Shown here: positions 2,981 to 19,126 of the stretch, piece by piece
Position numbering within the stretch: the stretch's first letter is position 1
Layout of the letters: each line of letters starts with the position of its first letter
Source: Pseudomonadota bacterium
GTDB taxonomy: Bacteria > Pseudomonadota > Gammaproteobacteria > Burkholderiales > JAKAFK01
Length of the DNA stretch: 36,509 nucleotides
Assembly (NCBI GenBank): GCA_021817985.1
Contig: JAKAFK010000035.1
Location: 1 to 36,509 of the forward strand
Direction of reading: 5' to 3'
Made by a program: the position numbers and the translations under genes
The notes under the pieces: generated by a model
What the model saw: the letters and a program-made list of their open reading frames with translations, nothing else
Database searches by the model: none
What the model was told of the DNA's origin: nothing

Positions 2981-3142
2981 ACTGCGAGGGGGCTGATCGT
3001 CTGCGCCGGGGAAGAGGTGCAATTCTCGTCGATCCCGGTATGCCCGCCTTGGCAAGTCAAGCGCACGGGCGGAGTCTGTGTATTGCCGATCCCCGTTGCC
3101 GACGGCATGCAAGCAAGCAAAGAACTGACGGGACGCGCTCAC

Positions 3143-3850
3143 ATGAGATGCTTGGTGATTGAAGATGACGCGGACACCTCCCGGTATGTCTGCAATGGGT
3201 TGAAGGAAGCGGGGCATGCGGCCACGCCATGCGGCAACGGACTCGATGGCCTGCACTACGCCGTCAATGAAAACTGGGACGCCATCATTCTCGATCGCAT
3301 GTTGCCTGGCCAAGTCGACGGCTTGTCGATCGTCGGCAAATTGCGGGATCTCGGGAAGCGCACGCCCGTGTTGATCATCAGCGCGCTGACAAGCGTCGAT
3401 GAGCGCGTGCGCGGACTGCGGGCCGGCGGCGACGACTATATCTCCAAGCCGTTTGCCTTCTCCGAGCTGCTCGCGCGCCTTGAGGCCTTGCGCCGCCGTG
3501 CCTGCCCTGGACAAGAATCGATGCGGCTGCAGGTGGCGGATCTCTCCCTCGACAAGCGCACCTTTCAGGTCGTCAGGGCCTCGCAATCCATCAACCTGCA
3601 GCCGCGGGAGTTTCGCCTGCTCGAGTACCTGATGCGTCACGAAGGGCAGGTCGTGACGCGGACCATGCTGCTCGAAGCCGTCTGGGACTGCCATTTCGAT
3701 CCCCAGACCAACGTCATCGACGTTCAGATCAGCCGGCTGCGAAACAAGATCGACAAGGGGTTTTCCCCTGCATTGATCCATACGGTACGGGGCAGCGGCT
3801 ACGTGCTTGCCGCCCGCGAATCTGCTCCATTGGCGGCCGACGCGCCTTGA
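3143..3850 (+). CDS. OmpR/PhoB-family response regulator
   Basis: A 235-residue transcription factor. The receiver domain (residues 1-120) shows the acidic pocket E7-D8-D9, the phospho-acceptor D51 in DAIILDRMLPG, S80 and the K102-P103 pair (YISKPF). A winged-helix DNA-binding domain follows, with LQPREFRLLEYLM, VVTRTMLLEAVW and the C-terminal VDVQISRLRNKID and HTVRGSGYVL signatures. The ATG at 3143 is taken because it puts the receiver at the very N terminus; upstream in-frame starts would add about 42 unrelated residues. It sits 92 nt before a sensor kinase gene, which is almost certainly its partner. The regulon cannot be read from the sequence; the neighbouring envelope and metal genes are candidates. 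Confidence 0.95.
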   Translation: MRCLVIEDDADTSRYVCNGLKEAGHAATPCGNGLDGLHYAVNENWDAIILDRMLPGQVDGLSIVGKLRDLGKRTPVLIISALTSVDERVRGLRAGGDDYISKPFAFSELLARLEALRRRACPGQESMRLQVADLSLDKRTFQVVRASQSINLQPREFRLLEYLMRHEGQVVTRTMLLEAVWDCHFDPQTNVIDVQISRLRNKIDKGFSPALIHTVRGSGYVLAARESAPLAADAP

Positions 3851-3942: not shown

Positions 3943-5340
3943 ATGGTCGTCCTTCGACGCTCCGTCACCACGCAGCTCGCGCTCGCCTACGGGCTGGTGG
4001 TCGCCGCCTCCGTCGCCCTGGTCTCCGCCGCGTTGTTTTTCGGCACGATCGGGGTTTTGAACCGGGCGGTGGACGCCAAGATCGAACGCGTTTCAAACCG
4101 CCTGATGCAAAATGACGGCAAAGGGCCCGCGTACGCCGTTCTTGCGCGCAGAATCAACCGGCTGCTCGCCGACGGCATCAACAGCGACACGGAGATTTAT
4201 CTGCTGCTCTCGCCCGGAGGGCGGCCCGTCGCCGGCAACATCTCGACTTGGCCGGACGCTTCGACGCCCTTTTCACGACCCGTGACCCGCCATGTGATCA
4301 GGGTCGGACGACCATCTTTGGCGCGGATCATCGTCCGGCGGCTGCCCGGCGGGGCACGCCTGTTCGTCGGCAGCGACCTGCGCCCCGAAGCGCTGATCCA
4401 CACCCTCGTCGTGCGCGCCCTCATCGCGGGCGCAGGCTTGTCCCTCATTCTCGTCGTCATCGGAACGGTCTATCTTCGGCGCCAGATCGAGCGCCGCATC
4501 GCCGAAATCGGCCGTACCGCACGGGAAATCGAGGCGGGAGACCTGACCCGCCGCGTGCCGTCCTTCGGCGACGACGAGTTCGGACGCCTGGGTCTCGGCA
4601 TCAACCGTATGCTCGATCGGATAGAGAATCTGATGGATGGGGTGAGGCATGTCTCGAATGCCATCGCGCATGATCTGCGCACGCCACTGGCCCGCGTCCG
4701 CGCCCGCCTCGAGGAGGCGTTGAGGCCCGGGCGTTCCCGGGAAGAACTCTCAGAGGCGGCCACGGAAGCCATTGAGGGGATCGACACCCTCATTCGGGTG
4801 TTCGAGAAGCTCCTGCAGATCGCCGAAGCCGAGTCGGGGATGCGCACGCGCTCTTTCGAGACCGTCGACCTGAATCGGGTCGTCCACGATATGGTCGAGC
4901 TCTATGATGCCATGGCCGAACAAGAACAGGTGGGCTTGACGACATCCGGTGAGGCGCCCGTTCTCGCCTTGGGCGATCGCGACCTGCTCGCGAATGCAGT
5001 GGCGAGCCTCATCGACAATGCCATCAAATACGGGGGGGCGGGGGCCCAGGTGCAGGTTTCGGCTTCTTCCGACAGCCGTTGTCTCCATCTGACAGTCCAA
5101 GACAACGGACCCGGGATCCCCTCCGAAGAAATCCCGCGGGTCACGGAACGCTTCTATCGTCTCGACCAAAGCCGCAGCCTCTCGGGCAACGGCCTGGGGC
5201 TGTCCATCGTGCGCGCCATCGCGACGCTCCACGGCGGCTGGCTCGAACTTCGGAATGCGTGCCCCGGGTTGGTGGCCCGTATCGTCCTGCCCACGGCGCG
5301 TGACGCGGCGGACGAGGATTCGCCGACACGCATCGCGTGA
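3943..5340 (+). CDS. HAMP-containing sensor histidine kinase
   Basis: A 465-residue inner-membrane kinase and the likely partner of the preceding response regulator. TM1 spans about residues 11-36 and TM2 about 157-178, leaving a periplasmic sensor region of about 120 residues with no recognised fold. A HAMP linker follows (about 179-232). The phospho-accepting His is H243 in AIAHDLRTPLARVRARLEE. The ATPase domain shows the N box (LIDNAIKYG, N359), the G1 box DNGPGIP and the G2 box GNGLGLSIV. The organisation matches the QseC/CusS/TctE class. The start at 3943 gives a short cytoplasmic N terminus (MVVLRRS) before TM1. The signal sensed is unknown. Confidence 0.93.
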   Translation: MVVLRRSVTTQLALAYGLVVAASVALVSAALFFGTIGVLNRAVDAKIERVSNRLMQNDGKGPAYAVLARRINRLLADGINSDTEIYLLLSPGGRPVAGNISTWPDASTPFSRPVTRHVIRVGRPSLARIIVRRLPGGARLFVGSDLRPEALIHTLVVRALIAGAGLSLILVVIGTVYLRRQIERRIAEIGRTAREIEAGDLTRRVPSFGDDEFGRLGLGINRMLDRIENLMDGVRHVSNAIAHDLRTPLARVRARLEEALRPGRSREELSEAATEAIEGIDTLIRVFEKLLQIAEAESGMRTRSFETVDLNRVVHDMVELYDAMAEQEQVGLTTSGEAPVLALGDRDLLANAVASLIDNAIKYGGAGAQVQVSASSDSRCLHLTVQDNGPGIPSEEIPRVTERFYRLDQSRSLSGNGLGLSIVRAIATLHGGWLELRNACPGLVARIVLPTARDAADEDSPTRIA

Positions 5341-5665
5341 GCGGGCCAAAGCTTTCCAATCCGTAATCGTCCCGATAGCTGGCGGCAAGGCGGCCTGTGC
5401 TACGATTTTTCGTGCCTGCCCGGAGCAGCGGATGCCCTTGATGGCGCGTCGCCGCGTGTCAAAAGCGTCCGGCAGGGCGGCGTGCCTCTGATCGGTGGTC
5501 TGACCCGTCGCCGGCCGCGGCGCGCAGACGCGATTCGGGCTGCATTCAGCCGCCGGAGGGTCCGCAAGGCCATGGCGGCGCTTGCACGATTCCCTCGCAA
5601 CGCGCAGGCCTGTTGCGCCCCAATGGTCTCAAACAAGCCCCAACACCATAGTCTGGTGGGTCCGC
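5341..5665 (+). other. 325-nt gap upstream of the hflK-like operon
   Basis: No convincing gene is seen here. A TTG-initiated extension of the downstream hflK-like gene reaches back to 5582, but it has no ribosome-binding site, and the ATG at 5666 is preceded by GGTGGG. The promoter of the four-gene operon is expected in this gap. The only hint is a -10-like TACGAT in the CTGTGCTACGATTTTT stretch near 5400, without a matching -35. No metal riboswitch fold was recognised. Confidence 0.4.
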
Positions 5666-6970
5666 ATGCTGAAAGCCTATCTTCTCATCGCCGGGATGCT
5701 GGTTATCCTGCTGCCCATCTTTGGGGCCATCATCTGGGCCATGAAGCCCAGTCACGCCGATGCCCATGGGCAGTCCATCCTCATGGACGATGACCTGGAT
5801 TTGCTGGGCAGTTTACGCGGGCAGCGCCCCGCCCCCGATGATGGTCAGGCGGCGGCCGGTGCGCCTGGCGCGCAGCAGTCACCGGCAGACCCGCAGACCT
5901 CCCGCACGGCCGAGGACTCGGACCTGAAGGGCGACGCGAGGCGGGCGCAGGGTGCGCGGCCGGCATCCCCAACCTCCGGCGCTGACCCGCGGCCGGGAAT
6001 TGGGCCGCTTGGCCGGCGCCTGTGGGTGCGGCTGGGCGATACGTTCCAGCTTCTCGGATTGCGGGGAGGCAAGGGCTTGGCCCTGGTGGGCGCACTGGCG
6101 GCACTGGTGTGGCTGGCCAGCGGCATCTATCTCGTCCAGCCGGACGAGCAGGGCATCGTGCTGCGGGTCGGGCGCTGGGTCGCCACGACGGGCCCGGGCC
6201 TGCACTACCATCTGCCCTGGCCCGTGGAAGCGCTCAGGCTGCCCAAGGTGACGCAGATTCGGCAGCTCGAGCTGGTTGACCTGGGCGAAGGGGCGATGCC
6301 CACGGGCGATGAGAACCTTGTCGACGCCAAGGCCACGGTCTTCTGGCGCATCGGCAATGCGGGGGAATTCCTGTTCAATACCAAGGATCCCGAACTTGCG
6401 CTGCAGGTCGCCGCGGAGAGCGCATTGACCAACGTCATCGCGCGCACGCCCATCGAGGCGGCGATGGCCACCGGGCGCCAGCAAGTGGCCGACGAGGCGC
6501 AGGCGCTGCTGCAGCGCTGGCTGGATGAGGAACGTTCCGGGATCGTGGTCACCGACGTGGTGCTCCAGAGCGTCGATCCACCGTCGGAAGTGATCGATGC
6601 CTTCAATGACGTTCAGCGGGCGCGGGCGGACGAGGCCCGCGAGCGCAACGTGGCGCTCGCCTACCGAAACAAAATCCTGCCTGCCGCGCAGGGCGAGGCC
6701 AACCGCATATTGGCGGACGCCGCCGCCTACCAGAGCCAAGTCGTCGATCTTGCCCAAGGTCAGGCCAAGCGCTTCACCGCCTTGGACGCGACGTACCGCA
6801 ACGCCCCCAACGTGACCGCCTGGCGGCTGTATCTCGACAGCATCGATGCGGTCCTCAAGAAGGCGAATAGGGTGATCGTCCTTGATTCCTCCGCAAAGTC
6901 GGTGCCCGGCGTGATACCCTACCTTCCCCTGCACAGCCAGGGCTCCACGCCCGCCGGGAGCCGGCGATGA
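5666..6970 (+). CDS. HflK-like SPFH-domain membrane protein
   Basis: A 434-residue SPFH/prohibitin-family protein resembling HflK, which with HflC forms a large inner-membrane cage around the protease FtsH. The SPFH part begins after a hydrophobic helix at about residues 136-157. It carries QPDEQGIVLRVGRW, GPGLHYHLPWPVE, a VDAKATVFWRI strand, and the helical tail EARERNVALAYRNKILPAAQG typical of HflK. Unusually, another hydrophobic segment occupies residues 4-26 (MLKAYLLIAGMLVILLPIFG). A low-complexity Pro/Gly/Ala region of about 100 residues follows it. Canonical HflK has one membrane helix. The ATG at 5666 is chosen for its GGTGGG site. The gene overlaps the hflC-like gene by 4 nt (ATGA). 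It is separated from the usual hfq-hflX neighbourhood and may be a paralogue. Confidence 0.85.
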   Translation: MLKAYLLIAGMLVILLPIFGAIIWAMKPSHADAHGQSILMDDDLDLLGSLRGQRPAPDDGQAAAGAPGAQQSPADPQTSRTAEDSDLKGDARRAQGARPASPTSGADPRPGIGPLGRRLWVRLGDTFQLLGLRGGKGLALVGALAALVWLASGIYLVQPDEQGIVLRVGRWVATTGPGLHYHLPWPVEALRLPKVTQIRQLELVDLGEGAMPTGDENLVDAKATVFWRIGNAGEFLFNTKDPELALQVAAESALTNVIARTPIEAAMATGRQQVADEAQALLQRWLDEERSGIVVTDVVLQSVDPPSEVIDAFNDVQRARADEARERNVALAYRNKILPAAQGEANRILADAAAYQSQVVDLAQGQAKRFTALDATYRNAPNVTAWRLYLDSIDAVLKKANRVIVLDSSAKSVPGVIPYLPLHSQGSTPAGSRR

Positions 6971-7848
6971 AGGCCCGGCGCTGGCGCGGCATCGGGTGGG
7001 TCCTGGGTTTCGCCGGCCTATGGGTGCTTTCCTTGGCGCTCTATATCCTGCCCGAGGGTCAGGCAGCCCTGGTGCTGCGCGACGGCGCGCCGATCGCCGT
7101 CGAACGGCGGCCGGGACTGAAAATGAAGATTCCCCTGATCGACGCGGTGCAGTATTTCGACACCCGGCTTCAGATGTTGGCGCCGGGTCCCGAGGAAGTG
7201 ATCCTGGGCGACGAAAAGCGTCTGTCGGTGGCGACCTACACCCGCTACCGGATCGTCGATCCCCTGCGCTTTTATCAGGCGCTGGGCGATGAGCGGCAGG
7301 CCGAGGCCCAGTTGGGCATGCTGGTCAGCGGCGCGCTTCGCCGCGAGCTCGGCACCGTCCCCCTGACCGACCTGCTTTCCTATCGCCGAGAGGCGCTCAC
7401 CAGAGCCATCCAGCAGCACGTCGCCGCCCAGGCCCGTCCGCTGGGCGTCGAGGTGCTTGAAGTGCGTCTGCATAGCGCGGACCTGCCGCCGTCGACCAGC
7501 CAGGCGTTCTACGCCCGCATGCGTTCGTCCCGTGAGCAGGAGGCTGATCAGTTGCGTGCGCAAGGGGCGGAGACGGCCCAGGAGATCGAGGCCAAGGCGG
7601 ACGAGGAGCGCACCGTGATCCTGTCGCAGGCGCAACGCCAGGCCACCATCATCCGCGGCAACGCGGATGCCCAAGCGAACCGCATCATGGCCGCCGCCTA
7701 CGGCAGGGACCCGAAGTTCTATCGACTCTTCCGTGCCCTGCAGACCTACAGCGGGCCGTTGGCCGACGCGCACGCCACCCTGGTCCTTACGCCGGATGCC
7801 GCTTCGCTTCGCGATTTCATCCACGGCCCCTCGCTGCGCCGGCCGTGA
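6967..7848 (+). CDS. HflC-like SPFH-domain membrane protein
   Basis: A 293-residue partner of the preceding HflK-like protein. One N-terminal membrane helix (about residues 9-27) leads into an SPFH domain with EGQAALVLRDG, RPGLKMKIPLIDAVQYFD and the HflC-typical ATYTRYRIVDPLRFYQALG. The coiled tail contains YARMRSSREQEADQLRAQG and ends DPKFYRLFRALQTY, as in HflC. In the family, HflK and HflC alternate in a ring that regulates FtsH access to membrane substrates. The start overlaps the stop of the upstream gene (ATGA), indicating translational coupling. A Nramp-like gene starts 19 nt downstream, so the SPFH pair is apparently co-expressed with metal transporters. Confidence 0.88.
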   Translation: MKARRWRGIGWVLGFAGLWVLSLALYILPEGQAALVLRDGAPIAVERRPGLKMKIPLIDAVQYFDTRLQMLAPGPEEVILGDEKRLSVATYTRYRIVDPLRFYQALGDERQAEAQLGMLVSGALRRELGTVPLTDLLSYRREALTRAIQQHVAAQARPLGVEVLEVRLHSADLPPSTSQAFYARMRSSREQEADQLRAQGAETAQEIEAKADEERTVILSQAQRQATIIRGNADAQANRIMAAAYGRDPKFYRLFRALQTYSGPLADAHATLVLTPDAASLRDFIHGPSLRRP

Positions 7849-7867
7849 AGGCGCGGGAGGAGCATCC

Positions 7868-9109
7868 ATGATACAGGCCGAGCAGACGTTGTCGCTGCGC
7901 ACGCTGAAGCGAGTGGCCCTGGCCGTCGGACCCGGCTTGGTGGTCATGCTGGCGGATACCGACGCCGGCAGCGTGATCACCGTGTCGCAAAGCGGCGCGC
8001 AATGGGGCTACAGGCTGCTGCTCCTTCAGTTCATGATCATTCCGCTCCTGTTTGTCGTCCAGGAGCTGACGGTCCGGCTGGCGTTGGCCACCGGCAAAGG
8101 CTATGGCGAACTCATCCTTCAGCGTCTGGGCCGCCCGCTGGCGCTGGTCGCGATGGGCACGCTGGGGGTGAGCTGCTTCGGCGCGCTGGTGACCGAGTTC
8201 AGTGGGATGGCGGGCGTCGGGCAGTTGTTTGGGGTCCCGGTGGACGTGATGGTGACCGCCGTAGGCGGGCTGGTGTTCCTCATGGTGCTCACGGGCAGCT
8301 ATCACTCGGTGGAACGGGTCGCGATCGTCCTGGGGGCATTCGAGCTGGCCTTCCTGGTGGTGGCGTGGCACGCGAAGCCGGATTGGCGCCTCCTGGCCGA
8401 CGGGCTTCGGCACCTGCCGCTGTCGAGCCCCGGCTATCTGTATCTGTTGGCGGCCAATCTGGGCACCAGCATCATGCCCTGGACAGTGTTTTACCAGCAG
8501 TCGGCATTGATCGACAAAGGGGTGAGCCTCGCGGAGCTCAGGACCGCCCGTATGGACACCTTGGTGGGGGCGGTCCTTTGTCAGGTGGTCACCGCCGCCG
8601 TGCTGATCGCTGCCGCGGCCGCCTTCGGCCACCGCGGGGGTGTCACGCTGGACAGTGTGCCGCAGATTGCCGATGCGTTCACGCCGGTACTGGGCGCGGG
8701 CGTGGGCGAAGTGGTGTTCGCCATGGCCTTGAGCGGCGGCGCGCTGGTCGCAACGATCGTGGTCAGCCTGTCGGCGGCCTGGGCGATGGGCGAGATTACC
8801 GGGGTGCGCCATTCGCTGGCTGACCATCCGCGCGACGCCCCGTGGTTCTACCTGGTCTTCGGCGCGTTGCTGGTGGCTGCCGGCGCATGGGTGGCGTCAG
8901 GCATCAACCTCGTCCGGTTGTCTATCGCGATCGGGGTGGTCAATGCGCTTTTGCTGCCGGTGGTGCTGGGCTTCCTGTACTGGCTGGCACGGCGCGAATT
9001 GCCGGAGCCGTATCGCCTCAAGGGGACTTACGCGCGAATTGTCGGCGGGATGTTCCTCGCCGTGGCGGCTCTCGGCCTGTATGCCGGCATTGCCGGCTCG
9101 CTGGCATAG
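7868..9109 (+). CDS. Variant Nramp-family metal transporter (DAGS/MPW type), copy 1
   Basis: A 413-residue membrane protein with about 11 hydrophobic helices that aligns with Nramp/MntH carriers. The segment MLADTDAGSVITVSQSGAQW corresponds to Nramp TM1, where the metal-binding motif is normally DPGN. Here it is D32-A-G-S35, so the Asp is kept while Pro becomes Ala and the metal-coordinating Asn becomes Ser. In TM6 the usual MPH is M203-P-W205, so the Met is kept and the His is lost. Nramp proteins import Mn2+/Fe2+ with protons; whether this variant does is unproven. GGGAGGAG precedes the ATG at 7868. It lies in an operon with hflK/hflC-like genes and a TerC-like gene. A paralogue with the same motif changes is at 19184-20443. 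Confidence 0.85.
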   Translation: MIQAEQTLSLRTLKRVALAVGPGLVVMLADTDAGSVITVSQSGAQWGYRLLLLQFMIIPLLFVVQELTVRLALATGKGYGELILQRLGRPLALVAMGTLGVSCFGALVTEFSGMAGVGQLFGVPVDVMVTAVGGLVFLMVLTGSYHSVERVAIVLGAFELAFLVVAWHAKPDWRLLADGLRHLPLSSPGYLYLLAANLGTSIMPWTVFYQQSALIDKGVSLAELRTARMDTLVGAVLCQVVTAAVLIAAAAAFGHRGGVTLDSVPQIADAFTPVLGAGVGEVVFAMALSGGALVATIVVSLSAAWAMGEITGVRHSLADHPRDAPWFYLVFGALLVAAGAWVASGINLVRLSIAIGVVNALLLPVVLGFLYWLARRELPEPYRLKGTYARIVGGMFLAVAALGLYAGIAGSLA

Positions 9110-9120
9110 GGCGGCGACAC

Positions 9121-9957
9121 ATGGGAGTCGGCCATCTCGCCCATGCCGTCGGCTTGACCGCGCAGGTTTTCTTCCTGGATCTGCTGCTCAGTGGCGACAA
9201 CGCCCTCGTGATCGCACTGGCCTGCCGCGGATTGCCGAAACCCCTGCTGACGCGCGCGGTGATGCTGGGCACCGTGCTTGCCATCGTCTTGCGCGTGGCG
9301 CTGACCGCTTTCGCCTCCGTGCTGCTCACGCTGCCGCTGGTCAAGCTCCTCGGTGCCGTCGCTCTGGTGAGCATCGCCCTGAAGCTCCTCCTGCCCGACG
9401 AAGACCCGGCGGCGGACGCCGGGCACTCCGGGGCAGGGCCCGACGGATTGGTGTCGGCCATTCGGATCATCGTCACCGCCGACGTCTTGCTGAGTCTCGA
9501 CAACGTCGCGGCGCTGGCCGCCGTGACCCAGGGGCATCTCCTGCTTCTCGCTCTGGGCGTGTTGCTGAGCGTCCCGCTGCTGATGTACGGCAGCCTTTTC
9601 GTGACGCGACTGGTGCGCGAGTATCCGCTGCTGGTCCCGGCCGGCAGCGCATTGCTGGCCCTGATCGCCGGCCGTTTGGCCCTATCCGATGCGCTGCTGG
9701 CTTCGTGGGTGACCGAGAAAGCGCCGGCGCTTGGCGTCGTCGTGCCGGTCGCCTGCGCGGTTTTCGTGCTCGCCGAGGCGCGCATCGTGCAAGAGCAACG
9801 CAACCGGTTGTCCGGGCCGCTCTTGGTCCCCGCACCGCAGGCCACCTCCTTCGGCGGGCGGGATGGCTTGGTCGATGGCCCTCCGCAGCCCGGCGCACCG
9901 GATCGGTCCGCCGGCGAGGGTGGGGATGGTCTTGCGCAACGATCAAGAACCACGTAA
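9121..9957 (+). CDS. TerC/YjbE-family integral membrane protein (putative metal exporter)
   Basis: A 278-residue protein with about 7 hydrophobic helices. The family signatures are the repeated acidic membrane motifs LDLLLSGDNALVIALA (D20, D26, N27) and DVLLSLDNVAALAAV (D121, D127, N128). These are conserved in TerC proteins, several of which export Mn2+ or help load metal onto secreted proteins. The last 60 or so residues are a Pro/Gly-rich, probably disordered tail. It starts 11 nt after the Nramp-like gene, so import-type and export-type metal proteins appear to be made together. Metal specificity is inferred from the family, not seen. Confidence 0.85.
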   Translation: MGVGHLAHAVGLTAQVFFLDLLLSGDNALVIALACRGLPKPLLTRAVMLGTVLAIVLRVALTAFASVLLTLPLVKLLGAVALVSIALKLLLPDEDPAADAGHSGAGPDGLVSAIRIIVTADVLLSLDNVAALAAVTQGHLLLLALGVLLSVPLLMYGSLFVTRLVREYPLLVPAGSALLALIAGRLALSDALLASWVTEKAPALGVVVPVACAVFVLAEARIVQEQRNRLSGPLLVPAPQATSFGGRDGLVDGPPQPGAPDRSAGEGGDGLAQRSRTT

Positions 9958-10119
9958 AAATCACCCGTCCGGGCGCGATGAGTCGCAGCGCGCGGGGCGC
10001 CCTCCAAATGCGAGACGATGGTCGTGCATCTGCGCGCGCAAGACGATCAGGAGGTGCTCGATTGCGCGCCATTGCCGACAGCGAAAACAACAAAACAACA
10101 AAACCATGAGGAGGCAGGA

Positions 10120-11235
10120 ATGAGGCTTTGGGGACACAAGGCGGATGGCTCGCAGGCAGAAATTGCCCGGTTGACGGCCGAACTCGGAGAAATGAATTCC
10201 CAGGTTGCACTGGCCAAGGCGCGCGCCGATGCCGCCGAAGAACGGGCGTCGGCATCGGCGGCAAGAATCGCGCTCTTGAGCGACGTGCTGGCGAATATGT
10301 CGATGTTTTCACAGACCATGACAGTGACACAATCCTCGCTGGCCACTCTGGCCAACAACATGCGGGAAGAGAAGGACCGGTCTGCCGACGCGCAAGGATT
10401 ATCGCTCGACAGCGGGCAGTCGATTGATCGCATTGCGAGGAATCTGTCTAAATTGGCGGAGGCCTCCGAGGGCGCCGCCGGGAAAGTGGGCCAGCTGGAC
10501 GAGCGCGCGCAGCAGGTTGGCGGCATTCTGAAGCTCATCAAGGATATTGCCGATCAGACGAATCTTCTGGCACTCAACGCCGCGATCGAGGCGGCCCGTG
10601 CGGGGGAGGCCGGACGCGGATTTGCCGTCGTGGCCGACGAGGTGCGCAAACTGGCCGAGCGCACCGCGAATGCGACGGCCGACATCGCCAATCTCGTGCA
10701 GATCATCCGGGCCGACAGCGCGGGCAGCCGCGACCAGATGGCTCAGCTGGCTGCGCAGGCCGCAACGTTCAGTCAGGATGGCCAAGCGGCTGCCGGCACG
10801 ATGCGGCGCCTCCTGGAAATGTCCGGCCATATGGAGCAAACCATCGCCGCGTCCGCGCTGCGCGGGTTCTGTGAACTTGCCAAGGTGGATCATCTGATCT
10901 ACAAGTTCCGCGTCTATCAGGTCATTCTTGATCTGTCGGACGAAGGCGAGAGCCACTTTGCAGACCACCATACCTGCCGGCTGGGCCAATGGTATTACGA
11001 GGGGGAAGGCAAGGAATGTTTTTCCCAGTTGCCCGGATACCGCGAAATCGAGTCTCCCCACACCAAGGTTCATGAGTCTGCGCTTGCGGCGCTGCGTGCG
11101 CATGCCGGGGGCGATGAACGCGGCGCGGTACAGGCCGTGTCCGAAATGGAAAAGGCGTCGATGGCCGTCTTGGAGGGGTTGGAGCGCATGGCGCAACAGG
11201 GCGAAGCGGATCGAAGTCTGTTGTGTCGGCACTGA
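10120..11235 (+). CDS. Soluble methyl-accepting chemotaxis protein with C-terminal CZB zinc-binding domain
   Basis: A 371-residue cytoplasmic chemoreceptor without any membrane segment. An N-terminal coiled coil (residues 12-70) leads into a receptor signalling domain. Its hairpin tip is [20 protein letters not shown], and [18 protein letters not shown] follows. The C-terminal third is a chemoreceptor zinc-binding (CZB) domain with the four expected ligands: H258 ([10 protein letters not shown]), C286 ([10 protein letters not shown]), H314 and H318 (PHTKVHE). CZB receptors such as TlpD respond to zinc status or to oxidants at the Cys. The ATG at 10120 follows a strong GAGGAGGCAGGA site. No other chemotaxis gene is nearby. 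The next stretch begins with a GC-rich hairpin at 11271. Confidence 0.93.
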
Positions 11236-11270
11236 CGGCGCCGACGGTCCTCGGCCTGGCGTGAGCGTCT

Positions 11271-11294
11271 GACGGGGGGCGGGCCCCCCTCGTC
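11271..11294 (+). terminator. GC-rich hairpin after the CZB chemoreceptor gene
   Basis: GACGGGGGGC (11271-11280) pairs with GCCCCC and CGTC (11283-11288 and 11291-11294), with a two-base bulge. It lies 36 nt after the stop codon. There is no T tract, so it is at best a weak or factor-assisted terminator. Confidence 0.4.
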
Positions 11295-11517
11295 GATCCG
11301 GCGGTTGATCCCGCTCGCGCCCTCGCCTTCTATGCCCCTTCCGGCCCGCGCCCGGGATGCGTCTCAACCGCGACCGGCATAACACCCCGAAACACTCCCG
11401 CAGGAACGGTCCCGTCCAAAGGCGACGCCGGTCCTTGCTCCTGCGAAACGGCTGCGGCCGCTTCGATCCTCATTCGAGTCGCCGGCGCACGCTCCGGCAC
11501 GGCAAAGATCCGTTTGT

Positions 11518-11534
11518 CGCTCCGCAGCGGAGCG
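11518..11534. repeat. 17-base perfect palindrome
   Basis: CGCTCCGCAGCGGAGCG reads as two 8-base arms around a central A, within the long gene-free gap. It could be an operator or a hairpin; nothing ties it to a known regulator. Confidence 0.5.
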
Positions 11535-11752
11535 TCCCACCCAGATGCGTCGCACCATCCACCGCCGTCCATGGCCTCGGAAATGCCCGTGCGCCAAGCC
11601 CTCAGAGCCGTTCTCCGCTGTCTCCGCCGACGGTGTAAAGAGGACAATGATGTATATTTATTAAGAGGGAGGCGGTTTCCGGTTCATGCCGATGGCCGGG
11701 TCATGCGCCGCCGTTCGCGAGCCCATTACAGACTGTCAATACGGAGCCCCAT

Positions 11753-12070
11753 ATGGAATCAGGACGCAGATTCGCAGTTGCCGCAATGCTGGTGGCCATG
11801 GTGTTCTCCGGCTCCGCCCTAGCCCAGTGGGGAGGGAGGGGTTATCGGTTCAACCAGGGCAATACCCCCGGATGGACGCTGATGACGCCGGCCGAGCGCA
11901 CGGCCTATCGGGACCAGATGCTCTCTGCGAAAACCTATCGAGAATGCCACACGATCTGGGTCACGCACCGCAAGGCGATGGAAGCGCGGGCCAGGGAAAA
12001 GGGCGTCACGCTGAATACGCCCCGTTTCAATGCATGCGATCGAATGAAGGCGCGCGGGCTCATCAAATAG
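11753..12070 (+). CDS. Small secreted protein with two cysteines (hypothetical)
   Basis: A 105-residue protein. A clear signal peptide (hydrophobic core about residues 8-20, cleavage after ALA at residue 24) is followed by a short Gly/Tyr/Asn-rich stretch and then a helical region. The helical part begins LMTPAERTAYRDQML and contains REKGVTLNTPRF. Similar small periplasmic helical proteins with the pattern 'TPAER..YR..M' are widespread in proteobacteria but uncharacterised. C65 (RECHTIW) and C95 (FNACDRM) may form a disulfide after export. ACGGAG precedes the ATG. It stands alone between the CZB chemoreceptor and the P-type ATPase. No function can be assigned. Confidence 0.8.
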   Translation: MESGRRFAVAAMLVAMVFSGSALAQWGGRGYRFNQGNTPGWTLMTPAERTAYRDQMLSAKTYRECHTIWVTHRKAMEARAREKGVTLNTPRFNACDRMKARGLIK

Positions 12071-12369
12071 CCGGCGCTCCTCTTTGCACGAGACCGGACG
12101 GCGCAGCCCAGTAAAGGGGAGAAGGGCGCTGCCGTCCCGGCCGCGCCTCGCGCGCAGGGCCGGGTTTCTCTTCGCAACTGTTGCGGAGCGCGAATCGTCT
12201 CGGGCTTATCGGGGATAGACGTGAGCATGACGCGAGGGGCGGGTCCCTCTACAAGGACGATTTCCGATGGCCGGCGCACCGACGTGGGCCGACTGGCGGG
12301 GGCGTATGCGCTCCTCCCGCACGGCATGGGGACTTCGTGTGACGTGCCCTGCCCCGAGCGAGGCCCTTC
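12071..12369 (+). other. 299-nt gap before the P-type ATPase
   Basis: No gene is supported. A short inverted repeat (GAGGG at 12234-12238 and CCCTC at 12245-12249) is present, about 120 nt before the ATPase start. No clear promoter was recognised. Confidence 0.4.
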
Positions 12370-14928
12370 ATGAGCGCCCCTGCTTCACAATGCCCTGCCG
12401 GACTGAGCGTGGCGGAGGCCGCCCGGCGTCTGCGCGCGGAAGGTCCCAACGCGTTGCCCAGCGGAGCACGGCGGACGGCGTGGGACATCGCGCGGGACGC
12501 GAGCCGCGAGCCGATGTTCGTGCTCCTCTTCGGCGCGGGCTTGCTTTACCTTTCGTTTGGCGACGTGCGCGAGGGGTTGACGCTGTTCGGGTTCGTGGTG
12601 GTCATCGTGGCCATGACGCTCTACCAGGAAGGCAAGGCCGAGCGGGCGCTGGAGGCGCTGCGCGATCTGACCAGCCCGCGGGCGCGGGTGGTGCGCGAGG
12701 GCGCCGTGCGCCACATTGCCGGCGCGCAAGTGGTTCGCGGGGATGTCTTGCTGCTGGGCGAGGGCGAGCGTGTGCCCGCGGACGGCATTTTGCTGTCCGC
12801 CAACGACCTCCAGGTGGACGAGTCGTTGCTGACCGGCGAGGCGCTTCCCGTGCGCAAGCGCGCGGCCGCAGACAGCCTTCCGCCGGCGCGTCCGGGGGGC
12901 GAGGACACGCCGTTTGCCTTTGCCGGGACGATGGTCGTCGGGGGCCAGGGCGTCATGACGGTGCGCGCGACGGGTGCGCGCAGCGAGATCGGGCGCATCG
13001 GCATCGCGCTGGAGACGATTGCGCCGGAGGAATCGCCCCTCAAGCGACAGACCGCGCTGCTGATCCGCAATCTGGCGCTGCTCGCGCTGGCGGTCAGCGT
13101 CTTGCTCACCCTCCTGCAGGGACTGCTGCGGGGCGACTGGCCGGACGCCGCATTGGCCGGCATCGCGCTGGCCATGTCGCTGCTGCCCGAAGAATATCCC
13201 GTGATCATGACGGTGTTTCCCGCGCTTGGGGCTTGGCGCCTGGCGCGCGAGCGTGTGCTCACGCGACGGATATCCGCCATCGAGGCGCTGGGGGCCGCCT
13301 CGATCCTGTGCGTGGACAAAACCGGCACCTTGACCCAGAACCGCATGCAGGTCGCCGAACTGTATGCCCGGGGGCGACGGCAGGAGGCCGCACCGGACGC
13401 CCCCGTACCGGCGTCTTTCCACACCCTCATCGAGTTCGCGGTGCTCGCCAGCGAGATTGCGCCCTTCGACCCGATGGAGCAGGCGTTTCATGCCCTGGCC
13501 CGGCAAGCCTTGCCGGAGTCCGCATGGGCGCATCCGGGCTGGTCGCTGGTGCATGAATACTCCCTTGGGGTCGACTTGCGCGCCATGGGCCACGTTTGGC
13601 ATCCGGCTCGAGACGGCGCATTCATCGTCGCCGCGAAGGGGGCGCCCGAAGACATCCTGGCGCTGGGTCGGGAATCGGATGACGGGCGGTCGGCGGCGCT
13701 GGCTGCCGCCGATGCGATGGCCTCGCGCGGCATGCGGGTCATCGCGGTCGCTCATGCGACCTTTGCGGGCGGCGACTGGCCGGCCGACCTGCACGGATTC
13801 GACTTCGCATTCCTGGGGCTGCTGGGGCTCGCCGATCCGCTGCGCGAAGGCGTTCGGGAGGCGGTCGGGCAATGCCGCGAGGCCGGCATCCGCGTGCTCA
13901 TGATCACCGGCGACTATCCGGCCACGGCACGGGCGATCGCCGAGCGGGCGGGGCTCGCGCCGGGCGAGGTGATCAGCGGGGAGGAGATCGCCTCGCTGCG
14001 CGCTGAGGACCTGCGGGTCCGGCTCCATGGCGCGCAGGCGTGCGCCCGCATCACACCCGAGCAGAAGCTGCGCATCGTGCAAGCCCTTCAGGCCGAGGGG
14101 GCGGTCGTGGCCATGACCGGTGACGGGGTCAACGATGCGCCGGCATTGAAGAGCGCGCACATCGGCATCGCCATGGGCGGCCGGGGCACGGACGTCGCGC
14201 GCGAGGCGGCGGCCCTCACCTTGCTGGACGACAACTTCGTGTCGATCGTGTCGGCCGTGCGCCTGGGGCGACGCATCTTCGACAACATGCAACGGTCGAT
14301 GTCCTACATCCTCGCGGTCCATGTGCCGATCGCGGGAGGGGCGCTGCTGCCGGTGCTGGCCGGCTGGCCTGCGCTGCTCTCGCCGATGCATATCGCGTTC
14401 CTCGAACTGATCATCGGTCCGGCGTGTTCCCTGGCTTTCGAGGGGGAACCTGCCGATCCCGGGCTGATGCGCCGCCCGCCCCGGGCGTCGCAAGTGCCCC
14501 TGTTTGCCCGTGACCGGATCGTTCTGGCGGCGGTGCAGGGGGGATTGTTGTTGGCGGCGGTGATCGCCGTTTACGGGTGGGCGCTTGCGCATATGCCCGA
14601 GGACGCCGCGCGGGCGGCTGCCTTCGTGGCGATGGTGACGGGCAACCTGACCTTGTTGCTCTCCTTCCGCTCGCAGACTTATTCGATCATCGAGACGCTC
14701 CGGCGTCCCAACCCGATTCTATGGGCAATCATCGTGGCCTGCGTGGTGTTGCTGGCCGGTGTCATCTACGTCCCGGGACTGCGGGACGCCTTTCGGATGA
14801 GGGCGCCGATGCCGGCGTTCCTGGGGGCCGGCGTGGGGGTCGGCATGGTCTCGGTCCTATGGTTTGAGGCCATCAAGTGGGTGGGCCGGCGTCTCGAACG
14901 CCGTCGCAGTAGCCTGCGTGCACGATGA
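12370..14928 (+). CDS. P2-like cation-transporting P-type ATPase (PEEYP type)
   Basis: An 852-residue membrane pump. The phosphorylation site is D316 in CVDKTGTLTQN. The actuator loop has LLTGEALP, in place of the usual TGES, and the hinge has MTGDGVNDAPALKSA. About 10 membrane helices are present, and an N-terminal cation-ATPase domain (SVAEAARRLRAEGPNALP) marks the P2 class. The TM4 ion-site motif is P273-E-E-Y-P277, not the PEGLP of Ca2+ pumps nor the CPC of heavy-metal pumps. The M6 segment reads LELIIGPACSLAFE. The transported ion is therefore not predictable; a divalent cation is likely. The ATG at 12370 has only a weak AGG upstream. It lies in a region rich in metal carriers, but is not obviously co-transcribed with them. 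Confidence 0.92.
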   Translation: MSAPASQCPAGLSVAEAARRLRAEGPNALPSGARRTAWDIARDASREPMFVLLFGAGLLYLSFGDVREGLTLFGFVVVIVAMTLYQEGKAERALEALRDLTSPRARVVREGAVRHIAGAQVVRGDVLLLGEGERVPADGILLSANDLQVDESLLTGEALPVRKRAAADSLPPARPGGEDTPFAFAGTMVVGGQGVMTVRATGARSEIGRIGIALETIAPEESPLKRQTALLIRNLALLALAVSVLLTLLQGLLRGDWPDAALAGIALAMSLLPEEYPVIMTVFPALGAWRLARERVLTRRISAIEALGAASILCVDKTGTLTQNRMQVAELYARGRRQEAAPDAPVPASFHTLIEFAVLASEIAPFDPMEQAFHALARQALPESAWAHPGWSLVHEYSLGVDLRAMGHVWHPARDGAFIVAAKGAPEDILALGRESDDGRSAALAAADAMASRGMRVIAVAHATFAGGDWPADLHGFDFAFLGLLGLADPLREGVREAVGQCREAGIRVLMITGDYPATARAIAERAGLAPGEVISGEEIASLRAEDLRVRLHGAQACARITPEQKLRIVQALQAEGAVVAMTGDGVNDAPALKSAHIGIAMGGRGTDVAREAAALTLLDDNFVSIVSAVRLGRRIFDNMQRSMSYILAVHVPIAGGALLPVLAGWPALLSPMHIAFLELIIGPACSLAFEGEPADPGLMRRPPRASQVPLFARDRIVLAAVQGGLLLAAVIAVYGWALAHMPEDAARAAAFVAMVTGNLTLLLSFRSQTYSIIETLRRPNPILWAIIVACVVLLAGVIYVPGLRDAFRMRAPMPAFLGAGVGVGMVSVLWFEAIKWVGRRLERRRSSLRAR

Positions 14929-14958
14929 GCGGAGCCTGAAGGGGCATTGGGAGGGGGG

Positions 14959-14971
14959 GCCGCCGGGCGGC
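14959..14971 (+). repeat. Short GC hairpin after the P-type ATPase gene
   Basis: GCCGCC and GGCGGC flank one G, about 30 nt after the stop codon. There is no T tract. A TATAAA at 14984-14989, just downstream, could be the -10 of the triple-barrel gene, but no -35 was seen. Confidence 0.35.
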
Positions 14972-15012
14972 ACCCACCCTGACTATAAATAGCTGTTGGC
15001 GGTAGGTGTGCC

Positions 15013-17769
15013 ATGAAGAAAAGTACTCGCGTATCGGTACGGCAGCCGCGGTGCGGGCGCAAGCACCTGGCTTGGGTGATCGGCGTCTTGTTTTGCGCGG
15101 CCGAGTCCGCCCGGGCCGATCCACCCACGCTCACGCCCGGGGTGAGCGCGGGGCCGCCGGCGATCTCGGGAGAGCTCTTGCGTCAGCAAGGCAATCCCGC
15201 CGTCCCGGTGACGCCCATATCTCCAACCGACGTGCTGTCGCCGGAGGCCTTGTCTTCCGCCAAGCCCCAACCGGGCGGATTGCGCGCCGGCTCGTTCCTG
15301 TTCTACCCGGATCTGTCCGTGTCCGAGCTTTACGACAGCAATCTTTATTCGACCCGTACGGACGAGGTCCATGATTGGGCGACGGTCTGGTCCCCAACGC
15401 TGGCCGTCCGCTCCAACTGGGCGCATCACAGCCTGAATTTCTGGACCGGGGCCGATGCCGAGCGCTATCGCACGCACAGCAGCGAAGATGTCACGGACGA
15501 ATGGTTCGAGGGCCAGGGACGCTACGATATTTCCCAGAAAAGCAATGTCTACGCCGGCGGCGGGATCAGCCGCAATCATGAGGACCGCTACAACATCGAT
15601 CCGGCGCGCACCGGTCTGACGCCGACGGTCTTCTGGGACACCAAGGCGAACGCCGGCGGGTTCCACCGGTTTGGCCGCACGTCGCTGCGCATCGGTGCCA
15701 CCTATGAGCATTTGCGCTATGAAAACGTCGCGGCGCCCGCCGGCGGGATGATCGACAACAGCGATCGCGACGTGACCCTCACTTCGGTGGGCGGACGGGC
15801 GGCCTGGCAGCTGACACCCAGGTACCAGGCTTTTGCCCAGATGGCCACCGATACGCGCCGCTACGACATGAGCGGCGTCGGCCGGGATTCGAACGGCTAC
15901 CGGGCCGCGGTCGGCCTCGGGCTCGACCTGGGCGGCAACAACACGGCCGAAGCCTATTTCGGCCACATGCGGCAACGTTACGACAACAGCGCCTATTCCA
16001 CCCTCAGCAAGCCTTATTTTGGCGCCAGCGCGAAATTCGCCATTTCTCCCATGGCCTACGTCACCGGCTTCGTGGACCGGACGCTCGAAGAAACCACCCT
16101 GCCCGGATCGTCCGGTTATCTCGACACGGTCGTGGGGGCCCGGATCGATCAGGACGTGACGCAGAATCTTGCCGTGAATGGCCGGTTGGCGATAGAGAAA
16201 AGCCAGTTCCAGGGCATCGACCGGCAAGACAATTACCTGGATGCCGGATTCGGCGCCAAATACTACGTCAGCCGGGAAATCTACCTCGTTGCCGATTACC
16301 GCATGCTGCTGCGCCGCTCGAACGCAACCACGGCGGTGGTGAACGGGGTGCAGGATACGTTCGACTTCGCGCGCAATCAGGCCTTCGTCGGCATCGGCTA
16401 TACGCCCGGGCGCGTGCCGCGCGCCGATGATCCCGGCGATGCTCTTTCATCGGAGACGGCCGGCGGGGGCGGTTCTCACGGTTCCGCCGCTGCGCCGACG
16501 GATTATTCCGGATTGTACCTGGGCGGGCTGCTGGGCGCGAACACCCTGTCCTCGGAGGTCTTCAGTCCCCGGTCGGGCGAAGGCGGCACGGATGAGATGG
16601 ACATGGCCAACGACGGCGGCGTCAGCGAGGCGGCGTTTGTCGGCTATGGCTGGATGTGGAAGCGCTGGTACGCTGGCGTCGAATTGGAGGGCGGGTCGTC
16701 CGATGCCTCGTGGTTTCACCAGAAAAACAAGGCGGACGCCCACACCATGTCGCTGGCGCAGAAGCAGGACTTTGGGGCGAGCCTGCGCCTGGGCTATGCC
16801 CTTCAGGGCGGTCTGTTGTATGGGAGCGTCGGCCGGGTCCGCAGTCATCTCAAGACGTACGACACGGAGAACCTCTATGCGGCCACCGGCGCGGCGGCCC
16901 TGGATCAGCATGTGAGCGGCACCCGCTATGGCGTCGGCCTCGACATTCCGGCCACCGAACGCCTGTTCGTGCGTACGGCGTACACGTATACGGACTATGG
17001 CAGTTACGGGGCCACTTACCAGACCGGGTCTGCGGCGACCACGACCGACCAATACAGTGATGCGGACGGCGTCTTCGAGCTCGGCTTGGGCTGGCGTCTC
17101 GGCGGGGCCGGGCGGCAACGCCGCGAGCCGCGTCCGGCGGCAAGTGCCGACGGCGTTGCCGGTTTTTATGTCGGTGCGCAGGTCGGGGCGGATAGCCTGA
17201 CCACCCGACTCGATGCCGTGCAAAACGATGGCGGCGGATCGGGGTGCACGAACTGTGCCTTTACCGGGGATTTCGGCAAGACTGCGGGCAATTGGGGGTT
17301 TTTCACGGGCTACGGTCTGATTTTCCACCGGGTCTATCTCGGCCTGGATCTCGATGCGGAGTCCTCCAACGCCGGCTGGGAGAATGCCCGCACGACCAGC
17401 GGCGGCGGGGGACGAACGTTCGGCGTGGAACTGAAGGAAAGCATCGGTGCCGGCGTCCGGCTGGGCTATGTGCTGAGCAACGGTGCCCTGCTGTATGCCC
17501 GAGGAGGGCAGGTGCGCAGCCGCTTCGACACCACCTATGCCAAGGGCAATAGCACGGCGACATGGGTCGATCGGGACGACGTGCTGAGCGGAACCCGGTT
17601 CGGGGTCGGGGTCGAAGTGCCCGCCTACGGCAAGTTGTTTCTCAAGATGGAATACGACGTGACGCGTTATGGCGCCTACGGGTTCACCACGACGCAGCAT
17701 CTTTCCGATACCCCCTCGTTCAAGAATGAGGACAGCGTGTTCAACATGGGCCTGGTATTGCATTTCTAG
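15013..17769 (+). CDS. Outer-membrane protein made of three consecutive beta-barrel domains
   Basis: A 918-residue exported protein. The signal peptide ends near ARADPP (residue 36), followed by a Pro-rich spacer. Residues about 90-465 resemble the putative beta-barrel porin-2 (BBP2) type, starting FLFYPDLSVSELYDSNLY and ending FVGIGYTPGR. After a Gly/Ser linker, residues 497-about 705 form a smaller porin/OmpA-like barrel (GLYLGGLLGANTL to FELGLGWRLGG). Residues 717-918 form another one (GFYVGAQVGADSL to FNMGLVLHF, ending in Phe as outer-membrane barrels do). The two small barrels are clearly duplicated: both contain a 'GYxxxxGxLLYxxxGxVRS' segment and SGTR(Y/F)GVG. Single chains with three barrels are unusual. 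A secreted Gly-rich protein follows 121 nt later. Exact barrel boundaries are estimates. Confidence 0.85.
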   Translation: MKKSTRVSVRQPRCGRKHLAWVIGVLFCAAESARADPPTLTPGVSAGPPAISGELLRQQGNPAVPVTPISPTDVLSPEALSSAKPQPGGLRAGSFLFYPDLSVSELYDSNLYSTRTDEVHDWATVWSPTLAVRSNWAHHSLNFWTGADAERYRTHSSEDVTDEWFEGQGRYDISQKSNVYAGGGISRNHEDRYNIDPARTGLTPTVFWDTKANAGGFHRFGRTSLRIGATYEHLRYENVAAPAGGMIDNSDRDVTLTSVGGRAAWQLTPRYQAFAQMATDTRRYDMSGVGRDSNGYRAAVGLGLDLGGNNTAEAYFGHMRQRYDNSAYSTLSKPYFGASAKFAISPMAYVTGFVDRTLEETTLPGSSGYLDTVVGARIDQDVTQNLAVNGRLAIEKSQFQGIDRQDNYLDAGFGAKYYVSREIYLVADYRMLLRRSNATTAVVNGVQDTFDFARNQAFVGIGYTPGRVPRADDPGDALSSETAGGGGSHGSAAAPTDYSGLYLGGLLGANTLSSEVFSPRSGEGGTDEMDMANDGGVSEAAFVGYGWMWKRWYAGVELEGGSSDASWFHQKNKADAHTMSLAQKQDFGASLRLGYALQGGLLYGSVGRVRSHLKTYDTENLYAATGAAALDQHVSGTRYGVGLDIPATERLFVRTAYTYTDYGSYGATYQTGSAATTTDQYSDADGVFELGLGWRLGGAGRQRREPRPAASADGVAGFYVGAQVGADSLTTRLDAVQNDGGGSGCTNCAFTGDFGKTAGNWGFFTGYGLIFHRVYLGLDLDAESSNAGWENARTTSGGGGRTFGVELKESIGAGVRLGYVLSNGALLYARGGQVRSRFDTTYAKGNSTATWVDRDDVLSGTRFGVGVEVPAYGKLFLKMEYDVTRYGAYGFTTTQHLSDTPSFKNEDSVFNMGLVLHF

Positions 17770-17890
17770 GATTCGCGGCAATGGCATCGAGCAAGCGGCA
17801 TTGCGCGATGAGCGTCGGAATGACGTCGTTGGGATCTTCGCACTCGGCTTTCCGATGGTTGTTTCGTGGACTTTTTTGAGGAAGACGAAA

Positions 17891-19126
17891 ATGGACAACA
17901 GAAGACGGAAACTCCAATGGATCTTGATGGCCGCGAGCGCCGCGGCGTTCGGGGCGATCGCGATGGGGCCGGGTGGACAGCCGATGAGCGGCGGCGCGTT
18001 CAGTCTGGTTTCTCCTGCGTGGGCTGCCGAGGGCAGCGGAGGCGGTGGCGGCAGCAGCGGTCACGGCACGCATGGCGGGGGCGGAGAGCATGAGTCGGGC
18101 GGCGAGGCGGGCGCCACGCATGGCAGCGGGAGCAGCGGGAATGATCTCATGATGCACGGCGGGAGCGGCTCGGGCGGCGGCGGCCGTCCGGTCTATGGCG
18201 GCACCCAGGGCGGCAAGAGCGGCGCGGGCGCCCGACCCAGCGCGACGGGGACGACTCATGGCAGCGGGCAGGGTGGCCCGGGGGAAGACAGCGACCGTCC
18301 GATCTGGGCCGGGATCAAGGGCGGCAAGGCCGGGGCGGGGACGAAGCCGACCGGCGCGGGGACGACAAAAGGGGATCTGTACGGCGATTTGTGGGTCATC
18401 TTGCGCGATGCGAACGGCGTCCCGATCCTCAATGCCGCCGGACAGGTCCAGCCGATCGATGCCAACGGCAACCTGATTCCGCTGGATGCCGAAGGCCAGC
18501 CGCTGGATGCCACGCTGGTGCAGACGGTTGAATTCAGCCGCCTGAGCGTCGCGCGCTCGCCGACGAAGGTGCTCGACAAGGCGCTCAACGAGGCGATCAG
18601 CGCGATCACGGCGCCGGGGGCGGTCATCACGCTGGATCCCGCGGGGCGGATCGTGGTGAACGGCACCCTCATCGATTCGCCGCTGGAGAATTTGGCGCTC
18701 TATAAGGCAGTGATGACCGACACGCTGCCGACGAACGTGAAAGCGCTCCTGCCGGCCAACCTGTCCGCCGCTTCGCTGCTGGCCGGCGCGGCAGACAAGA
18801 CCAGCACCATCACGGTTGACACCGTGGAGTACCTCAACTCGATTTTGGGCATCAATCAGGTGACCGATGGCGTGACGACGAAATATTACGACTTTTCGTC
18901 GGTGAAATACGACCGCGCCGCCACGTACGACGGGGTGAGCGCCACGGTGCTGGTGAAGCAGAGCGACGGCAGCTATGTGGCCACGCCGGTCAACCTCTAC
19001 GATGCGGTGTTCAGCGGCTCGAACTGGGTGGATCCGACGCCGACAGGAGGCGCGGCGGATTTTGCGGCCGAAGCGAATGACGCGCTGCGGGTGGTCGAGT
19101 TCCTGCACGACAATTCGGCGCCGTGA
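17891..19126 (+). CDS. Secreted glycine-rich protein with internal repeats (hypothetical)
   Basis: A 411-residue protein. The N terminus has a basic stretch (MDNRRRKLQW) and a long hydrophobic segment ending SPAWAAEG, read as a signal peptide of about 46 residues. Residues 47-165 are dominated by Gly, Ser and His. They hold two related 26-residue units starting at R99 (RPVYGGTQGGKSGAG) and R136 (RPIWAGIKGGKAGAG). The Gly region ends at TKGDLYGDLWVILRDANGV, a junction motif that recurs in other uncharacterised secreted proteobacterial proteins as far as recalled. The rest (about 165-411) is a non-repetitive domain without a recognised fold and without Cys. GAGGAAG precedes the ATG. Its place after the triple-barrel gene suggests a surface partner or cargo, but that is inference. 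Confidence 0.75.
   Translation: MDNRRRKLQWILMAASAAAFGAIAMGPGGQPMSGGAFSLVSPAWAAEGSGGGGGSSGHGTHGGGGEHESGGEAGATHGSGSSGNDLMMHGGSGSGGGGRPVYGGTQGGKSGAGARPSATGTTHGSGQGGPGEDSDRPIWAGIKGGKAGAGTKPTGAGTTKGDLYGDLWVILRDANGVPILNAAGQVQPIDANGNLIPLDAEGQPLDATLVQTVEFSRLSVARSPTKVLDKALNEAISAITAPGAVITLDPAGRIVVNGTLIDSPLENLALYKAVMTDTLPTNVKALLPANLSAASLLAGAADKTSTITVDTVEYLNSILGINQVTDGVTTKYYDFSSVKYDRAATYDGVSATVLVKQSDGSYVATPVNLYDAVFSGSNWVDPTPTGGAADFAAEANDALRVVEFLHDNSAP

Follow-up and report, generated by a model that had tools for sequence, protein, structure and literature searches.

A rare HflK/HflC-type gene pair that keeps company with a TerC-family transporter gene

Four linked genes and a second hflKC

The window, that is, the whole stretch of 36,509 nucleotides of contig JAKAFK010000035.1 (assembly GCA_021817985.1) from a Pseudomonadota bacterium of the order Burkholderiales, carries at 5666-9957 a group of plus-strand genes that encode an HflK/HflC-type pair of SPFH proteins followed by two membrane proteins of metal-transporter families. 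An earlier reading of the letters alone (hereafter, the sequence-only reading) had described these four same-strand genes with junctions of -4 (an overlap), 19, and 11 nucleotides, and all were confirmed in place:

5666..6970, plus strand, hflK2: HflK-type SPFH protein, second copy (TIGR01933, 227.3 bits, cut-off 159.4; Band_7, 7.5e-21)
6967..7848, plus strand, hflC2: HflC-type SPFH protein, second copy (TIGR01932, 187.5 bits, cut-off 134.4)
7868..9109, plus strand, nramp2: SLC11 transporter of the Nramp-related (NRMT-like) type (PF01566, 2.2e-64, 218.2 bits, cut-off 29.8)
9121..9957, plus strand, terC: YjbE-type membrane protein of the TerC metal-export family (TIGR03717, 173.2 bits, cut-off 134.8)

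A GGAGGAG ribosome-binding site precedes nramp2. The annotated start of hflK2 at 5666 is doubtful because it lacks a clear ribosome-binding site, because the annotated protein has 156 residues before the V-Q-P-D-E-Q motif compared with about 50-100 in most relatives, and because it includes an additional hydrophobic stretch at residues 6-24; the true start may lie downstream. Within 5200-10300, the minus strand carries the sole promoter-like site, and three terminator-like sites are found where 2.6 are expected, one of them on the plus strand, inside terC.

The sequence-only reading had allowed that this might be the only hflKC of its genome. It is not: the source assembly (3.97 Mb in 184 contigs) contains a separate canonical hflKC on another contig (C38), in the order der-hfq-hflX-hflK-hflC-hisZ-purA as read from translated frames, where the genes other than hflK and hflC were named by resemblance, without a family search. 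HflK2 is 35.5% identical to the canonical HflK of its own genome and HflC2 is 35.9% identical to the canonical HflC; the identity of HflK2 to five of its relatives is 55-57%.

Linkage with TerC across genomes

Scanning a collection of named genomes with an HflC2 alignment yielded 77 loci: 65 belonging to the HflC2 clade, 11 in the canonical alpha-proteobacterial context, and one fragment (L126). The 11 canonical loci were labelled by gene context, with the names degP and mrp assigned by resemblance and from annotated plasmid controls. In 62 of the 65 clade loci, compared with none of the 11 canonical ones, there is a same-strand TerC gene no more than 4.5 kb from HflC2; for Nramp, the respective counts are 36 of 65 and 0 of 11. 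By these conservation counts, the four-gene arrangement is more than chance and is not confined to this genome, as the sequence-only reading had conceded it might be. The claim that the SPFH pair travels with both metal transporters held for TerC, the constant partner, and had to be relaxed for Nramp; given these frequencies, the core of the module appears to be a dedicated SPFH pair plus TerC, with the importer optional. Among the three clade loci that lack a whole TerC, one is on a contig that ends within nramp (L097) and another on a contig whose first frame, just ahead of hflK2, encodes a receiver domain (L105), in our reading the last part of a TerC-receiver fusion; the third, L054, contains a shortened nramp and no TerC was found there.

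The partners stay constant while the gene order is shuffled. As scored by script over the 65 loci (K, HflK2; C, HflC2; N, Nramp; T, TerC), the orders are K-C-T (25), K-C-N-T (21), N-T-K-C (5), K-C-T-N (3), T-K-C (3), K-C-N (2), C-T-N (1), and K-C (1), together with two loci that have an extra upstream Nramp and two scored as K-C-K-N-T, which we read as K-C-N-T with a stray K match. Junctions are short or overlapping in many loci, for example, -4 from TerC to HflK2 in L067 and -4 from HflC2 to Nramp in Chromobacterium and Aquitalea (junction lengths outside the window use starts guessed as the first codon). Among the hosts are Chromobacterium, Aquitalea, Crenobacter, Andreprevotia, Glaciimonas, Rhodoferax, Polaromonas, Pseudomonas fluorescens, P. 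brassicacearum, Xanthobacter, Rhizobium, Rhodoblastus, and Magnetococcales; P. fluorescens FW300-N2E3 has a module locus (L077) with no Nramp. In place of the canonical neighbors, hfq-hflX or, in alphas, apbC and degP, the module loci carry TerC. A plasmid-borne version of the module was considered and rejected: the three plasmid matches are only 43-45% identical, and the two that were viewed are annotated as apbC/Mrp, hflK, hflC, and degQ.

In a tree of 84 HflC sequences, all 68 TerC-linked rows fall on one side of a single branch (support 97/93); after label shuffling, 14.9 changes are required on average. The 68 rows labelled as TerC-adjacent are the 65 clade loci (L054, L097, and L105 included), the window, and two loci, L152 and L153, whose TerC was confirmed in a separate check. 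The 11 canonical-context rows do not form one group (two changes, with L124 apart). Of 19 class-level loci submitted to frame extraction, 8 yielded a frame; 4 of these were retained for the tree, and L128, L131, L132, and L138 were left out because their frame was wrong. The HflC of L116, on a contig of a "Stygiobacter" metagenome-assembled genome, is nested among those of Magnetospirillum, so that this contig is probably mis-binned. The tree and the gene orders bear on an explanation that needs no contact among the proteins, namely, an operon for envelope or metal stress in which the SPFH pair protects membranes and the transporters adjust metal levels. Operon linkage by itself cannot show contact, and in Escherichia coli, HflKC has been tied to tolerance of aminoglycosides and oxidative stress (PMC10434171); however, the retention of the same partners through changes of order and of one transporter family by a single HflC2 branch argues against mere co-regulation, which we regard as improbable.

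At the genome level, of 300 genomes from the order, 8 encode HflC2 (E-value up to 1e-82), that of the window included, compared with 174 that encode a YjbE-type TerC over the cut-off. All eight HflC2 genomes encode exactly one YjbE-type TerC over the cut-off, the linked one, and all eight also encode an HflC that scores in the canonical range; thus, HflC2 goes with TerC and not the reverse. In the same 300 genomes, hflC2 and terC adjoin each of the five best outside matches of nramp2 (64-66% identity), and neither was seen in the flanks, of up to 1.5 kb, retrieved around Nramps at most 58% identical to nramp2. HflC2 is missing from the sister genome G001 (92% complete), as is any YjbE-type TerC over the cut-off. 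A class-wide hidden Markov model search at 1e-60 matched 250 of 369 genomes, nearly all with canonical-range scores, and in this sample, none except the window's own genome beats 4.3e-81. In a phylum sample, 16 of 398 genomes pass 1e-84, four of them (G000, G741, G792, and G808) at about 1e-140 or better; when the loci of 11 of the 15 outside genomes were checked over about 1.5 kb, two had TerC (L173 and L174), and eight were HflC matches of 39-44% without TerC within that distance. The short flank of the G808 locus (L175) has no TerC, and its contig position matches L067, so the TerC of G808 is taken to lie further upstream, as in L067.

The HflKC-TerC module is, then, rare and patchy. Such a distribution (8 of 300 in the order), along with the fact that positions 1-11.5 kb of the window find only short or paralogue-level DNA matches in G001, is what would be expected if a mobile or accessory block had simply moved these genes jointly, their linkage being functionless. 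We consider this very improbable given that the linkage is present in beta, gamma, alpha, and Magnetococcales lineages, in different flanks.

The transporters and the surroundings of the module

Many module TerCs carry C-terminal additions of three kinds: a hydrophobic segment, such a segment plus a two-cysteine domain, or a receiver domain. In the window TerC, the tail is short and lacks an additional hydrophobic segment. Receiver fusions were identified with Pfam in L067 (2951-4351, 8.2e-16) and L071 (7617-8915, 1.3e-21), and TerCs of this kind are apparently open to control by phosphorylation. The second kind, a last hydrophobic segment followed by a domain of about 80 residues, is represented by L077 (10915-12153) and 19 further loci, and its two cysteines are invariant in the 20 aligned domains, several of which are near-identical. 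No Pfam match was obtained within this domain in the five TerCs scanned. The AlphaFold model of the L077 TerC has a mean pLDDT (predicted local distance difference test) of 63, with blocks of the C-terminal domain, predicted to be beta-rich, at 82-89; a fold search with this model returned nothing at an E-value up to 0.001 (best, 0.1). Should the TerC core end on the cytoplasmic side, an extra segment would place the cysteine domain in the periplasm and, where there is none, the receiver domain would stay inside, a scheme that would fit all three kinds of tail. A putative fusion of TerC with a histidine kinase in L106 (open reading frame 11055-14396) was rejected: the translated frame contains only the kinase, and the TerC match is in another frame. 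On the YjbE model, the scores of module TerCs are low, at 174-200 bits.

The second transporter, which had been called Nramp-like, does belong to the Pfam Nramp family and yet is closer to EleNRMT, a transporter of Mg2+, than to MntH. Among solved SLC11 proteins, EleNRMT (7qia) matches nramp2 with 184 bits (3.5e-53), compared with at most 65 bits for the other 15 sequences (next best, 4.5e-17), and nramp2 is below the cut-off in all three matching NCBIfam Nramp/MntH models. In the alignment, its metal site reads DxxS...TxxM-P-W, intermediate between the DxxG-TxxA/T motif of NRMTs and the classical Nramp site, which keeps Met (PMC8806188). It shares with EleNRMT/NrmT the Thr and the P-W after the site in transmembrane segment 6, and differs in having DxxS instead of DxxG, and Met instead of the Ala or Thr of NRMTs; the gene context of NrmT, an MgtE-N-like gene (PMC4072509), is likewise unlike that of nramp2. 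With MntH, it shares the Met of segment 6, but it lacks the DPGN and MPH motifs. As regards the substrate, the Met argues for transition metals, whereas the Thr is important for Mg2+ in EleNRMT (PMC8806188). The motif varies among module Nramps: D is replaced by E in those of Chromobacterium, Pseudomonas, and others, and the group of L067, L069, and L071 has Ala and Asn or Ser at the segment 6 places. The window encodes another NRMT-like Nramp on the minus strand (19184-20443), 57% identical to nramp2, with a DxxS-AxxM site and a 97% identical copy in the sister genome.

Upstream of hflK2 lie two genes of a potential regulatory system:

3017..3850, plus strand: OmpR-type response regulator (PF00486/PF00072; best NCBIfam match, heavy-metal response regulator, 236 bits, below the cut-off of 279)
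3943..5340, plus strand: sensor histidine kinase (HATPase_c, HAMP, HisKA)

Relatives of the response regulator (63-66%) and of the kinase (52%) occur near the module in L069 and L071, and it is possible, on this weak link, that the two genes regulate the module. Several other neighbors were observed. Just downstream of terC, at 10120-11235, the window encodes a methyl-accepting signalling domain with a CZB zinc-binding domain and no predicted hydrophobic segment, and at 11573-19126, it contains a block with a PMR1-like P-type ATPase and a beta-barrel porin that is conserved in G001, whose contig ends there. A gene of a single cluster (Pfam assigns its L089 member to BacA/UppP undecaprenyl-diphosphatase) is found near the module, on either strand, in eight beta and alpha loci (L059, L081, L089, L090, L095, L106, L108, and L109). 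A DUF4337 protein (Pfam; L044 copy, 5793-6380) is encoded 5' of hflK2 in six Aquitalea loci (loci listed: L044, L057, L058, L060, L062, L063, and L107).

What the pair may hold, and known systems

The interpretation we tentatively favor, at somewhat less than an even chance, is that HflK2/HflC2 is a scaffold or cage dedicated to TerC. The paralogous pair would build a membrane-anchored, probably periplasmic assembly, with the YjbE-type TerC exporter as its standing client, joined in about half of the loci by the NRMT-like importer. The likeliest role of such an assembly would be to hold, stabilize, or gate the transporter within a single patch of membrane, directing the export of Mn2+ (possibly Mg2+) to where the metal is needed, be it for relief of metal excess or for the loading of secreted metalloproteins, as with TerC in Bacillus. 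We infer the physical complex, its periplasmic orientation (from family knowledge), the metal, and the function of the module. The reading draws on published work: HflK/C proteins are reported to face the periplasm (PMC2636767) and to assemble with FtsH into a cage or nautilus (PMC12048511). A precedent comes from Bacillus subtilis, where the TerCs MeeF and MeeY export Mn and act in exoprotein metalation: two flotillins, FloT and FloA, are listed in their pull-downs along with FtsH, which becomes essential when both TerCs are lost (PMC10550928). The scaffold reading is supported by the presence of TerC in 62 of 65 clade loci, in several orders, compared with none of 11 canonical ones, by the short junctions, by the single HflC2 branch, and by the eight of eight HflC2 genomes that have the linked TerC.

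Several observations weigh on the other side. The search patterns were built from TerC-linked HflC2s and so favor close relatives; most YjbE-type TerCs occur without HflC2 (174 versus 8 of the 300 genomes); and ten genomes without HflC2 have best YjbE E-values in or below the module range (5.7e-43 to 4.8e-59), for which reason the notion of a distinct module TerC type, defined by score, was dropped. The Mn-sensing yybP-ykoY riboswitch is common upstream of TerC genes, but none was found at the Rfam gathering score in the window, L050, L055, L066, or L077, nor in one canonical locus. Finally, both HflK2 and HflC2 exceed the cut-offs of the NCBIfam HflK and HflC equivalog models and may, therefore, simply modulate FtsH.

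This last point underlies the main competing explanation, under which HflK2/HflC2 is a dedicated FtsH adaptor that cages the protease and decides on degradation of TerC (and Nramp), the operon thereby tuning carrier abundance by proteolysis. Beyond the match to the FtsH-modulator models, the closest solved relatives of HflC2 are the HflC chains of HflK/HflC complexes, and membrane substrates are reported to gain entry to FtsH through native HflK/C (PMC12048511). The poly-Gly N-terminus seen in all eight canonical-context alpha HflKs measured (of 11 loci) is absent from all 60 module HflKs measured (of 65 loci), a weak counterargument: the canonical HflK of the window's genome, with a short Gly/Asn-containing start, also lacks it, so this feature does not separate the two HflK copies of this genome. 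We deem the adaptor explanation rather unlikely.

A bolder extension of the scaffold reading, to which we assign a low probability, is that HflK2/HflC2 forms a periplasmic dome over TerC, and over the importer where present, creating a periplasmic nanocompartment in which a fused receiver switches export in some lineages. The last membrane segment of TerC and the two-cysteine tail, where present, would lie inside the dome; TerC would raise the metal level there, client exoproteins would be metalated, and the importer would recover unused metal, the dome preventing the exporter-importer pair from becoming a futile cycle. In the lineages with a fused receiver domain, its phosphorylation would switch TerC export.

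These questions bear on what SPFH assemblies hold besides FtsH and on how TerC proteins come to be positioned at sites where exported proteins are metalated. An HflK/HflC lineage with a single standing transporter partner makes both cleanly accessible to genetics: where a genome also has a separate canonical hflKC, deleting the module would leave the housekeeping pair untouched. The case also calls for caution, in that the main client of a protein labelled "FtsH protease activity modulator" on the basis of a cut-off may be a different one.

Searches of the open-licence literature, in which subscription work may be missed, listed no paper whose title or abstract opening describes an association of HflK/HflC with TerC or Nramp. 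The word "TerC" is absent from the main text of two SPFH surveys (PMC13086221 and PMC2636767), as is "transporter" from that of the latter, and in a paper on bacterial transport, separate counts are given for TerC and for one SPFH protein (PMC3180692). A conserved HflKC-TerC module is, thus, probably undescribed; the suggestion of an undescribed metal-homeostasis system survives in this form, with the partner corrected to TerC and the Nramp made optional.

Three further known systems invite comparison. With the canonical HflK/HflC proteins (SPFH3; FtsH modulators), the module pair shares the family models, a predicted N-terminal hydrophobic segment, and the K-C order with a 4-nucleotide overlap, but it forms a separate branch, is a second copy at 35-36% identity, and neighbors TerC instead of hfq-hflX or, in alphas, apbC/degP. 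The SPFH-NfeD operons, of stomatin or flotillin with NfeD, similarly combine an SPFH gene with a constant membrane-protein partner (PMC2636767); in the module, however, the partner comes from a metal-transport family, and for SPFH3, that survey reports no NfeD. The Bacillus TerCs of exoenzyme metalation, MeeF and MeeY, belong to the same family as the module TerC, and their pull-downs list SPFH proteins and FtsH; yet, meeF resides in yceCDEmeeF and meeY is under a Mn riboswitch (PMC10550928), whereas the module TerC is YjbE-type and often carries C-terminal additions.

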